DNA of 64,000 nt from Cryoendolithus antarcticus (taxonomy: Eukaryota; Ascomycota; Dothideomycetes; Cladosporiales; Cladosporiaceae): assembly GCA_002077065.1 (NCBI GenBank), contig NAJO01000024.1, positions 62,001 to 126,000 on the forward strand. The letters are read 5' to 3'. The position numbers were made by a program, and so were the translations under genes. The notes beneath the pieces were generated by a model. It was not told the DNA's origin. It searched no databases and saw nothing but the letters and a program-made list of their open reading frames with translations. Each line of letters starts with the position of its first letter. Position 1 is the stretch's first letter. Shown in pieces: positions 23,214 through 27,632 of the stretch.

Positions 23214-25217
23214 TCAAGCGGCCTTCACCTCCTCCTCTTTCTCTTCCTTGCCCTCATACGCCGGCAGCCTCTTCTGCACATCACTGAACGTCTCCTTGCC
23301 CTTCACCATACTCTCAATAGCATCCAGGATATCATCTAACTTCGCGCGCACCTGCTTCGTGCTATCTCTATCTCTCAGCGTAAACGTGCCGTCTTCTAAG
23401 CTCTCGTAATCAACAGTGATGCCGCAAGGAATGCCAAGCTCGTCGTTTCTGGAGTACCGCTTGCCGATACTCACACCGGAAGTGTCAGTGTCGTAGCTCA
23501 GATGGCGCTCGTCGAGCTTCTCTTCGATCTCCTCAACCAAAGGCATGAGTCGGACATCCTTCTGCAAAGGGACAAGGAGCACTTTGATCGGTGCGACTGT
23601 GGGCTTAAACGACATGACTGATCGTGCAACATCGTCCTCACGGGTCCAGTAAGCGTGCTCCATCAAGCTGTAGAGGATACGACCGATACCGAAAGATGGC
23701 TCGATGACGTTAGGCACGTACTCGCGTGTGCTGACTGTGCGCGTCTCCTTCGAGATCTTGACGATCTCCTTATCGAGCTCCACCTTCGGTGTCTCCATGT
23801 CAGGTACATCGATCTCGACCTTGCCCTCCTTGTCAAGTGTGAGCGAGAGCTTTTCACGGAAGTCCTGGTCGAGCCTGTCAAGCGCGGCCTGCACCTTGCC
23901 AGCATCCTTCTTGAACTTCGGCCCTGCCTTCTTCTTATCGAGTTGGGCGTCCCACTCCTGGATCCGAAGTGGCTCCTTTAGCACCTCGCGCACATGTAAT
24001 GGCACACCCGTTGCCTCGCTGTGGACGGTCAAATCGAATGCACTGCGGTCTGCACACCCCACGCACTCAATCCAGCCATATGAAGTGAGCAGCTCACAGT
24101 CCCAACAGTCGGCAGCGTAATGTGCCATCTCGTTCTGCATGTGTTGTCGGAAACGAAGCTTGCTAGCATCCACACCAATCCTGTCCATGAACAGAGCAAT
24201 GCGGACTAGGAAGTAGCCGAGCGTCTCGTTGTCGACCAGCTTGCTGTCGACAGCCTCGCCAATCGACACGAACGCTGGCTTCGAGCCGCCCTCACTCTGT
24301 ATACTTCGTGACAGCAGCGGCAGCTTCACATCCCGTACCTGCTTGAACTTGGGATGCTTCTTGCCACTCTCCGGGTCTACGTAGTGCTCGATCTCTGCCA
24401 TCAAGAATTCGCGTACTCGCAACAGACCAGATCTCGGCGACAGCTCATTGCGGAACGAGTACCCTACTGATGCCGAAGCGAATGGCATCTTGTTGTCATT
24501 ATACTCAACAAGATGCTGGAACGACAAGAACTGGCCCTGCGCAGTCTCCGGCCTCAGAAACGCCGGCTCCTTCCCGGTAGCGCCAATCTGCGTCGCGAAC
24601 ATCAAGTTCACGGGCACAGGCGGCTCGACCTCATTCCCAGTAGCAGGATTCCGAATGTCGTGCTCCTTGATCAATGCACCCATATCAGGGCCCGTGTAAT
24701 CGTCAAGCGTCGCAAGCAAGAACTCATACTTCTCCCTCACAGCATCGTCGAGCTTCGTCGCCACCACAGCACCAGCCTTGACCTTCTTCTTCTTCTTCTT
24801 CGCGTCAGCTTCAGTCGAGTCTTCGAGCTTCTCGCCTCTAGCCTCCTTGTCAGACTTCAGCCTAGCTTCGAGAACATCCTTGATCAGATGATCCGTCCGT
24901 AGGATCTCACCAGACTTCGGGTCCTTGCACATGAAATCCGCGAACTTCTCCACATGCCCAGATGCTTTGAACACGTTATAAGGCGTGATCATGGCACATT
25001 TGAGCTCCTGCATGCGTTCCTTTCGGACGAAGTGGTCTCGCCAGATGGTCAGAAACTCAGCCTCCAGGGTAGCGAGGGGGTGGCCATAATCGAAGAGCCC
25101 TTTGACAGCGCCGTGGGGCTCGAATGATTGCCAGTAGAAGTTCTTGCGTTTCACTAGAGATTCGAAGGCGGCGCGATCAAAGTCCTGGCCCTTCTGTGTC
25201 TTGTATTCCGTGGCCAT
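23214..25217 (-). CDS. GRS1: Glycine--tRNA ligase (cytosolic frame start shown)
   Basis: Single exon; 667 aa from the ATG at 25217 (MATEYKTQKGQDFDR). This class II synthetase charges glycine onto tRNA-Gly. Motif 2 is in FRNELSPRSGLLRVREF, and the motif 3 region in PSFGIGRILYSLMEHAYW with the anticodon-binding domain after it (VLLVPLQKDVRLMPLVEEIEEKL). A Lys/Glu-rich insert with a poly-Lys run occurs near residue 150. The frame stays open 5' of this ATG for another 55 codons and encodes an Arg/Ser-rich mitochondrial-type presequence, but that stretch has no ATG. As in yeast GRS1, one gene may therefore supply both compartments through a non-AUG upstream start. Confidence 0.94.
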   Translation of the reverse strand: MATEYKTQKGQDFDRAAFESLVKRKNFYWQSFEPHGAVKGLFDYGHPLATLEAEFLTIWRDHFVRKERMQELKCAMITPYNVFKASGHVEKFADFMCKDPKSGEILRTDHLIKDVLEARLKSDKEARGEKLEDSTEADAKKKKKKVKAGAVVATKLDDAVREKYEFLLATLDDYTGPDMGALIKEHDIRNPATGNEVEPPVPVNLMFATQIGATGKEPAFLRPETAQGQFLSFQHLVEYNDNKMPFASASVGYSFRNELSPRSGLLRVREFLMAEIEHYVDPESGKKHPKFKQVRDVKLPLLSRSIQSEGGSKPAFVSIGEAVDSKLVDNETLGYFLVRIALFMDRIGVDASKLRFRQHMQNEMAHYAADCWDCELLTSYGWIECVGCADRSAFDLTVHSEATGVPLHVREVLKEPLRIQEWDAQLDKKKAGPKFKKDAGKVQAALDRLDQDFREKLSLTLDKEGKVEIDVPDMETPKVELDKEIVKISKETRTVSTREYVPNVIEPSFGIGRILYSLMEHAYWTREDDVARSVMSFKPTVAPIKVLLVPLQKDVRLMPLVEEIEEKLDERHLSYDTDTSGVSIGKRYSRNDELGIPCGITVDYESLEDGTFTLRDRDSTKQVRAKLDDILDAIESMVKGKETFSDVQKRLPAYEGKEEKEEEVKAA

Positions 25218-25382
25218 GCTGGATGGTGTCCGGACGTTTCGTGTCCGAATGGGTACTTGGAACTTTGATTTTGGTGCCGAAGTGGCAAATGCGCGGTGCT
25301 GAGAAGTGAAAGAGCGAATGATCCTCGAGGCCGCCACGATGAGGTCCTGAAAGCGGTGTCCTGGTCCAGCCGATGTGAGTCA
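25218..25382 (-). other. Non-AUG mitochondrial presequence of glycyl-tRNA synthetase
   Basis: In frame with GRS1, codons from 25337 to 25218 read as a presequence (xAASRIIRSFTSQHRAFAT, then basic residues to the cytosolic Met), with no acidic residue across 40 codons. The next in-frame stop upstream is a TGA at about 25380-25382. No ATG lies between. The codon at 25335-25337 is GTG in good context (A at -3, G at +4) and is the best non-AUG candidate. An upstream coding exon spliced in at TTTCAG just before it is the alternative. Confidence 0.65.
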
Positions 25383-25673
25383 ATGGCCAACTTTTGCTGC
25401 TGCTGGAGAGGTATCCGCCAAATTTTGAGGTGCAGTCACGATGCATGGCCCGTGCGAAGGACGCGCCTGCCGAAACGCGTTGTACATGCAGCATATATGA
25501 GGGTGATGATGAGACATGCATGGGTATCTATCTATGTTCCGCATGAATACGGTTGTGCGAGTACCCAAAGGTCACATCCTCCGCGTTGCGCCTCCCATCC
25601 AATACCGACCGGCCTACGAGCGCCCATTGAATTGTACAAGCCTATCCACTACTCCTACACCATATCCCTTCAC
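25383..25673. other. Intergenic gap, GRS1 promoter
   Basis: This roughly 290 bp is upstream of the GRS1 open frame and downstream of the alpha-actinin stop. It may also hide a GRS1 leader intron; nothing else is recognised. Confidence 0.35.
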
Positions 25674-27632
25674 TCATCGATGCCCGTTCGCCTTGTTATC
25701 CAAGAAAGTCTTCATAAAGCTCACATAATCATACTTCGGCATGTGCCGATCTTCTTGCAGATCAGGCCCCTTATGCGGTGGCATAGTCTCGATCAACTGC
25801 TGCACAACCTCGTCGGGGATCAAGCTGTGCGTCAGGTCCATCTCAGTCACATACGGCTTGCCATCAGCGACGTCGCGGAAGCTCTCGAACACTTGCTCAG
25901 CTGTGTTCTGGTCTTCGGTGACGTCCACCATGAAGCGGATGAACTGCTCGAAGCTCACTGCGCCGCCTCGGCCAGCGACGTCGACGAAGCGATCGTGCAT
26001 CTCGTGCTCGTCGTAGACTAGACCTAGTGAGGCGAGTGCGGCCGAGAACTCCAGCTCTGTCAAGGAGTTCGAGAGATCCCGGTCAAAGTGGCGAAACACA
26101 GATTCGAACTCCTCCAGCTGAATCGGCGTGAGGTTCGTCATGTTCCGTGCCACCATCTGATTCTCGAGGAAGGCCAGCTTCTTCTGTACGCTTGAGCGCA
26201 CGAGACTGAGCTCGTACACAAGCTCATCGTAGGTGTATGTGGTGTAGTCATTCTCCTCAATATTAGCTTCCTGACATTGCTTGTCAAGCTTGGCGATCAC
26301 CTCGAGGAATTGGTCCATCGGTGCGAGGTGTTGCGAGATCTGACTTGTGTGAGACAACTGATCTTCGACATCGCCTTCTAGGCCTGATATGGACATGCTA
26401 ATGGTGCTCAGCGCCATCGCAAAGTCATTAGCTTTGTCTGCGAACGACCGTCGCAGGTTGTTCTTGATGTCACGGATCGTGTTGTTGATGATCCGACTTC
26501 GGTCACGCTCGGCAATCATCAAGCCATTCCATGACTGGTCCAGCGCTTCCAGACGCAGCTCTTCGGGTGGCTCGTACGGATTGAGGTGGTATGTGTTGAG
26601 TTTTGTCTTGATGTTTCCCAGCATCCCAGCCACATCGCTCTTCTCGCCGACCCATGTTCGCTTGTCCTTCGATTTGTACTTCGCGAAAGTGTTATACTGT
26701 GCCTTCGCGTCTGCGTATGTGTTGTCGAACTTTGCGATCTCCCACAGCTTTCGCTGCTGCGCTATTTGTTCGAGAAGTGCTCTCATGCGCCTCTCGTAGT
26801 TGTTCTGCATCTCCCACGTTCCCTGCATATTCGAGACGAATTTCTCCACTCTCCGTCCTGCATTCTCCACCCTTTCCATATGGGAGAAAGCATGGAACCA
26901 GTAAGCGATGTAAGTCATGAGTGATCGCTCGTCTGGCTTTGCCACATCGCATACATCCTCCACGTCCAGCAGGTCAGGTATACCGATCTCCTTGGAAGCG
27001 ATATCGAATGCAAGCTGCATGTTCCCATGATGATCAGACTTGTCCAGCTTGTCGTAGTCGATCAAGTCAGGTCGATGGATGTCAAGCAGCGCGCAGAAAG
27101 CCAGTCCATCGTTCCAACTCCCTGAGAAGTCCACCACAGACACCTCGTCATAGCACGCCGTTTTCCTCTGACACCAGAGCAGCAGTCCCTCCCGCGCACT
27201 CAAGCCCTGATCATTGATGTCGCTGATCGTGAACCTCAAGATCAACGTCCAGATCAGTCCCAAGATGATCTTCCGATTGCCATCGACAATGTCCTCGGCG
27301 CCAATATTTGTCAACTGGATCTTCCTTCCCTTGATGAAGTCCAGAGCGATATTGGCGTTCTCGAAGCGCTGCACGCGCATCTTCGGCTTTGCAGCGTAGC
27401 GGCCGAGCGACTCTTGCGAGAGGATCTCGAGGAGGTGGATGAGGATTGTGCCATCGGAAAGGTCCTTGACGAGGTCGGTGATCTGGAGGGAGCGGGTTGA
27501 GATCTTGCTGTTCAGCCTACATGGTTCTTGCATTAGCACTCTTCGTCGATCAGTCATTCGGCATAGGCATGATTACCATTTACCAAAGGTCTTCTCCTGT
27601 ACTTTGATCCAACTTGACTCGAGCACCGACAT
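25674..27632 (-). CDS. ain1: Alpha-actinin-like actin cross-linker
   Basis: Two exons: 27577-27632 and 25674-27516, giving 632 aa. Exon 1 encodes MSVLESSWIKVQEKTFGK and splices (TG|GTAATC...GTAG) to WLNSKIS, the usual start of the first calponin-homology domain. CH1 spans about 10-115 and CH2 about 125-230 (LLLWCQRKTACY, WNDGLAFCALLDIHRPDLIDY). A short spectrin-type coiled rod spans about 240-490, and two EF-hand units the C-terminus (VFRHFDRDLSNSLTELEF is a calcium-loop-like segment). Length matches S. pombe Ain1 (about 620 aa). It bundles actin at the cytokinetic ring and in septum formation. Confidence 0.92.

Follow-up and report, generated by a model that had tools for sequence, protein, structure and literature searches.

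The window analysed here, a stretch of 64,000 nucleotides, belongs to the genome of Cryoendolithus antarcticus (Cladosporiales; formerly Rachicladosporium antarcticum), described in PMC10739867 as an Antarctic endolith without growth at 24-25 °C. On its reverse strand, a glycyl-tRNA synthetase (GlyRS) gene occupies positions 23214 to 25217 as a single open frame of 667 amino acids, counted from the cytosolic ATG, and matches the family profile TIGR00389 with 692 bits, over the cut-off. The cytosolic ATG (25217-25215) follows the letters TCCAGC and is followed by G, which places A at -3 and G at +4. Upstream of it the same frame continues through 54 sense codons, none of them ATG, until an in-frame TGA (25382-25380). 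The preliminary description of this DNA had counted 55 codons to a stop; the open frame is there as described, and the count is 54 sense codons plus the stop codon. Its further statements on a basic, ATG-free upstream frame, on about 40 Arg- and Ser-rich residues with no acidic one, and on a GTG in strong context were all borne out. The GTG (25337-25335) has A at -3 and G at +4, and the 40 codons from GTG to AGC (25218..25337), a putative mitochondrial presequence, encode VAASRIIRSFTSQHRAFATSAPKSKFQVPIRTRNVRTPSS, with six Arg, two Lys, seven Ser, four Thr and neither Asp nor Glu; between this GTG and the cytosolic ATG no ATG occurs in any frame. Over all 54 codons, the frame has a single acidic residue, an Asp three codons 5' of the GTG. 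Two ATC codons can also be considered as starts, a weaker candidate immediately 5' of the GTG (25338..25340) and a rival candidate five codons past it (25320..25322, with A at -3). The last 27 residues, HRAFATSAPKSKFQVPIRTRNVRTPSS (25218..25298), contain an R-x-F-[AS]-T motif, which we take to resemble an MPP/Icp55 cleavage site. Both in-frame and out-of-frame ATGs exist upstream of the GTG, the closest in any frame being out of frame at 25444..25446 (offset -229). If they were within the mRNA, such ATGs would interfere with initiation at the GTG, and the long mRNA presumably starts downstream of the ATG at 25444..25446.

The genome is duplicated, and in the assembly searched (47 Mb, 149 contigs) a second GlyRS copy, the homeolog L002, has 98% protein identity with that of the window. 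AlaRS from the same assembly shows 99% identity to C. antarcticus AlaRS. The homeolog has the same 54-codon frame, free of ATG and closed by the same TGA, with CTCATCGTGGCGGCCTCGAGGATCA around the GTG unchanged, and both ATC codons are conserved. An assembly error as the cause of the absent ATG is made unlikely by this second copy, which has no ATG either. Within the 40 presequence codons, the copies differ at one first, five second and nine third codon positions, and pN/pS of this frame is 0.29 (Fisher p 0.02, run on rounded counts, as were all our tests of homeolog pN/pS), versus 9.6 and 0.59 for the other two frames. The signal of selection lies in the second half, the last 20 codons having 7.5 synonymous and 3.5 non-synonymous changes and the first 20 codons from the GTG one synonymous and three non-synonymous changes. 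When the assembly was searched with the TIGR00389 profile, four matches were obtained, and only the homeolog pair was over the cut-off, the remaining two being partial (24.2 and 22.9 bits); PF02091, the alpha subunit of bacterial-type GlyRS, had no match in the assembly. Because only the homeolog pair is recognised as GlyRS, mitochondria must depend on this pair, provided that the assembly lacks no gene. A separate GlyRS gene together with loss of the upstream frame in relatives had been named as evidence against a dual-use gene, and the only other gene found is the homeolog, which keeps the frame. Farther upstream, the 3' part of the neighbouring gene (about 25810-26115), which we take to be actinin-like, is 97-99% identical between homeologs in three 100-column stretches, against the 50% difference at GlyRS synonymous sites, and this patchiness of divergence is perhaps due to gene conversion.

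We compared the putative presequence with the GlyRS proteins of relatives, taking the best 120 of 5986 matches as the sample, in which the relatives reach 82% identity at most and, among those with a species name, 79% (Peltaster fructicola). Within this sample, 21 proteins bear an extension of at least 30 residues before the cytosolic Met, their lengths being 44-80; they were picked by the pattern of the cytosolic N-terminus and by this length, which left out shorter extensions (e.g., P0031 and P0081) and the long plant proteins P0073 and P0075. A profile of the 21 presequences gave 37.5 bits for the window and 34.2 bits for the homeolog, scores reached by none of 2000 shuffles in either case, and the other two frames gave 1.2 bits or less. 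The last 27 residues alone account for 35.0 bits in the window (again 0 of 2000 shuffles) and 33.2 bits in the homeolog, while the first 13 residues after the GTG have no detectable homology, 216 and 1206 of 2000 shuffles scoring at least as well. The cross-relative comparison proposed earlier thus yielded amino-acid conservation for the last 27 residues and none for the first 13. The homologous presequences, starting with Met, are those of Dothideomycetes and Sarea (Pseudocercospora, Salinomyces, Fulvia, Didymella and others), and the nearer relatives share with the window the motif ...F[SA]T....[KR][FY]QVP.RTRN. These predicted proteins differ from the window in having a Met 44-80 residues before the cytosolic Met; they are known as proteins alone, and their initial Met may represent a GTG or TTG in gene-caller predictions. 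When residues 1-75 of the extended protein were used as the query, two of 32 candidates were obtained at E<=1, namely P0089, matched across the presequence (7.9e-8), and the window protein itself as it starts from the cytosolic Met, P0001 (0.47); the 20 other presequence-bearing relatives among those listed were missed by this search. DNA scans of viral and genome collections, once each, found no relative.

Chance was evaluated on several levels. Among 20,000 dinucleotide shuffles, 1.55% were open, free of Asp and Glu and contained at least eight Arg or Lys, and 544 of 127,760 overlapping 40-codon stretches on both strands of the window were open, free of Asp, Glu and Met and similarly basic (at least eight Arg or Lys), so that the composition by itself is only mildly unusual. 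ATG was absent altogether in 58% of the dinucleotide shuffles, and thus the missing ATG alone carries little information. The hydrophobic moment is not exceptional either, being reached by 9.5% and 34% of shuffles. What places the presequence above chance is its homology to the presequences of relatives and the same homeolog frame with its low pN/pS. On this basis the presequence is real protein, the homology leaving its N-terminal start unfixed; the start of coding is not pinned by conservation because the first 13 residues are unmatched and the first 20 codons have the few, mainly non-synonymous changes mentioned above. An RNA hairpin 3' of the GTG, which could aid initiation, was also considered and dropped, the folding being no better than that of shuffles (z -0.44 and 0.41). 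Read-through of the stop from an in-frame ATG at -327 was dropped as well, because the homeolog hits a stop 18 codons after that ATG.

With these data, production of mitochondrial GlyRS from a near-cognate start in the same gene as the cytosolic form appears very likely. The dual-use gene with a non-AUG start that was proposed in the preliminary description is supported by the AUG-free frame in both copies, the presequence homology and the lack of another GlyRS. For the codon itself, GUG at 25337 is probably the mitochondrial start, as judged from the sequence, and it is the only one that combines A at -3 with G at +4. A start at some other near-cognate codon, namely ATC 25322, ATC 25340 or several codons jointly, is rather unlikely. 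It would agree with the conservation of both ATC codons in the homeologs and with the reported ability of ATC to support mitochondrial function of yeast GRS1 (PMC2909995), and tandem near-cognate starts have precedents in ACG ACG of ALA1 (PMC2909995) and in ACG AUU of Cryptococcus LeuRS (PMC7049704); however, ATC 25340 has C at -3, and a start at ATC 25322 leaves only 11 residues, the RA of the presumed cleavage motif included. A further possibility is that no long form is made, that import depends on an internal signal, and that the leader is conserved for a regulatory role as DNA or RNA. The intergenic stretch 25218-25673 is 85-88% identical to L002 per 100 columns and synonymous sites of the GlyRS coding sequence differ by 50%; this conservation above synonymous sites makes non-coding constraint likely, hinting that the stretch may be under promoter or leader constraint. 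The frame-specific protein homology to relatives and the third-position bias between homeologs nevertheless speak for a translated presequence, and we regard the absence of a long form as highly improbable.

A spliced 5' exon that brings an in-frame AUG is the remaining alternative. It had been suggested that such an exon might be joined at the TTTCAG just before the GTG (25347..25352), and this version is contradicted by the homeolog, in which the site reads TGTCAA, with AG changed to AA, and by the lack, in every shared model, of a GTNNGT donor present in both copies. Another site, TTCTCAG at -81 before HRAFATS, resembles an acceptor as well; it is conserved within TTCACTTCTCAG and lies right where the homology to relatives starts. 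For the GlyRS leaders we listed all models with GT-AG introns of at least 40 nt, an ATG no farther than 500 nt away and a junction that is open in frame. The listing gave 96 models in the window and 45 in the homeolog, of which 15 are possible in both copies and two of these 15 use the TTCTCAG acceptor. GTNNGT donors occur in three of the 96 and five of the 45 models but the two copies do not share the position of any such donor (0 of the 15 shared models); one of the three window models ends at TTTCAG and one at TTCTCAG. The donor compatible with the latter, GTCGGT at -392, is present in the window only and reads GTCGGC in the homeolog. Three introns of this genome in HisRS and eIF1, found by eye in both copies, have the donors GTTGGT, GTGAGT and GTACGT and the branch sites CTGAC or CTAAC. 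The relative P0089 also argues against a spliced exon, since it looks like an unspliced single-frame prediction with its presequence continuous with the enzyme, to judge from a C-terminus that runs off the family, and P0076, P0078, P0080, P0083, P0085 and P0092 have similarly truncated lengths. Because a conserved TTCTCAG stands where the homology begins, we still allow the spliced exon a small probability, lower than that of a start at another near-cognate codon.

Returning to the near-cognate start, the following mechanism can be proposed. One nuclear gene, present as two homeologous copies, would yield both GlyRS forms. Of the ribosomes scanning a short leader, a part would be captured by a near-cognate codon with a strong context, for which GUG 25337 is the likeliest candidate, and the resulting long form with its basic presequence of 40 residues would be imported into mitochondria and then cleaved. 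The majority of ribosomes would scan farther and start at the AUG at 25217, which also has a strong context, yielding the cytosolic enzyme, so that dual targeting would be achieved by leaky scanning past the near-cognate start.

Such a system has close parallels in yeasts. The Saccharomyces cerevisiae precedent cited in the preliminary description is in print: mitochondrial GlyRS of GRS1 begins at UUG, and ALA1 uses ACG (PMC2909995). The gene described here resembles GRS1 in enzyme family, in serving two compartments from one gene, in its AUG-free in-frame extension and in its upstream near-cognate codon, and differs in that GRS1 has TTG and the candidate here is GTG, whose use as a start we infer from sequence. 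When GTG replaced the UUG of GRS1, mitochondrial function was kept and GTG ranked with the most efficient of the non-ATG starts, ATC and others being likewise able to replace UUG (PMC2909995). The gene also resembles the synthetases called DualNCC, which have a near-cognate codon before the presequence and then a downstream cytosolic start; those named in PMC7049704 include GlyRS of S. pombe, AlaRS of S. pombe, S. cerevisiae and C. albicans, and ArgRS and LeuRS of Cryptococcus, and the same source reports that weak AUGs and near-cognate starts were exchanged several times in fungi. The DualNCC examples in the accessible part of PMC7049704 include neither a Dothideomycete nor a GUG start, and there GlyRS of fungi besides S. 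pombe is classed as DualAUG, in conflict with the UUG of GRS1 (PMC2909995). The accessible part of PMC7600831 has no mention of GUG, and no Dothideomycete case appears in the titles and abstract openings, with few subscription journals among them, of the literature on non-AUG, near-cognate or GUG starts of synthetases and on CUG starts of ValRS. The trick is therefore already known from yeasts (GRS1 and ALA1), and what is new is an additional example, in both duplicate copies. With it, near-cognate dual targeting of GlyRS reaches a Dothideomycete, in which the two homeologs provide an evolutionary control from within one genome; this control and a sister case in ValRS are the value added. Because 21 of the best 120 matches (of 5986) carry an extension of at least 30 residues, the present result suggests that fungal annotations starting at the first AUG may miss mitochondrial forms of synthetases, and some of the other matches may be incomplete or may have AUGs passed over by the gene caller.

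Five other synthetases of this genome, AlaRS, ValRS, HisRS, CysRS and ArgRS, which presumably are dual-targeted too, were surveyed together with GlyRS. In the family searches, AlaRS, ValRS, CysRS and ArgRS were each represented by one homeolog pair above the cut-off; the HisRS pair, being split by an intron, was below its own (258 and 257 versus 286.75 bits), and weaker extra matches were obtained for HisRS, CysRS and ValRS. An in-frame upstream AUG is present in both homeologs of HisRS (-43), CysRS (-57) and ArgRS (-62), each with C or T at -3, and extra in-frame AUGs are found farther upstream in one copy of HisRS and both copies of ArgRS. GlyRS, ValRS and AlaRS have no in-frame upstream AUG in either homeolog, and since the other three have one, the absence in GlyRS is gene-specific. 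At the cytosolic AUG, all six genes carry a purine at -3 and a G at +4, and this holds for both copies.

ValRS (L022, G000:C102; L023, G000:C85) has, in both copies, a CTG at -34 whose context is A-3/G+4, and conservation of the protein sets in at this codon. Its homeologs differ in eight of the 17 residues upstream of the CTG and in two of the 34 from the CTG on, where pN/pS is 0.15 (p 0.011). The copy L023 (G000:C85:160348-163149) has an internal TAA that is not found in the other copy, and either this copy is decaying or the assembly is in error. AlaRS (L008, G000:C126; L009, G000:C134) has 67 and 73 open, ATG-free upstream codons, and its upstream frame carries a GTGGCGGC stretch like that of GlyRS. 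This frame had no match to the presequences of relatives (17 of the best 120 matches were used), 292 and 799 of 2000 shuffles scoring at least as well, and with its pN/pS of 0.51 (p 0.31) also unsupportive, we have kept AlaRS as a lead only and not as a second proven case. The pN/pS calculation was made on the genes other than ArgRS, and its 'CDS first 100' rows are meaningless for HisRS, where they cross an intron, and for CysRS, where indels occur.

The codon and context pairs found are thus a near-cognate codon with A-3/G+4 (GlyRS and ValRS) versus AUG with a pyrimidine at -3 (HisRS, CysRS and ArgRS), and this pattern fits leaky scanning, in which either a weak codon stands in a strong context or an AUG stands in a weak one. 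There is an about even chance that in this apparently cold-adapted lineage three of the six surveyed synthetases (GlyRS with GUG, ValRS with CUG and AlaRS with some near-cognate codon) have abandoned AUG as the mitochondrial start, the leakiness rather than the codon being selected, with a trade-off between codon and context. As ValRS, GlyRS and AlaRS stand beside HisRS, CysRS and ArgRS within a single genome, one can test directly if selection keeps leakiness constant as codon and context vary. A role of cold in the loss of AUG is speculation.

Two minor observations may be added. The eIF1 of this genome (L032 and L033) reads DPFAEA when aligned by eye, and the yeast protein presumably reads DPFADT, so that Ala stands here at the T15 position. 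This position is linked to start-codon fidelity in PMC7049704. The sole COX1-family match in the assembly is a cox1-like fragment with a stop (L007, G000:C58:973225-973377), which is probably a mitochondrial insertion, as its contig is of nuclear size.
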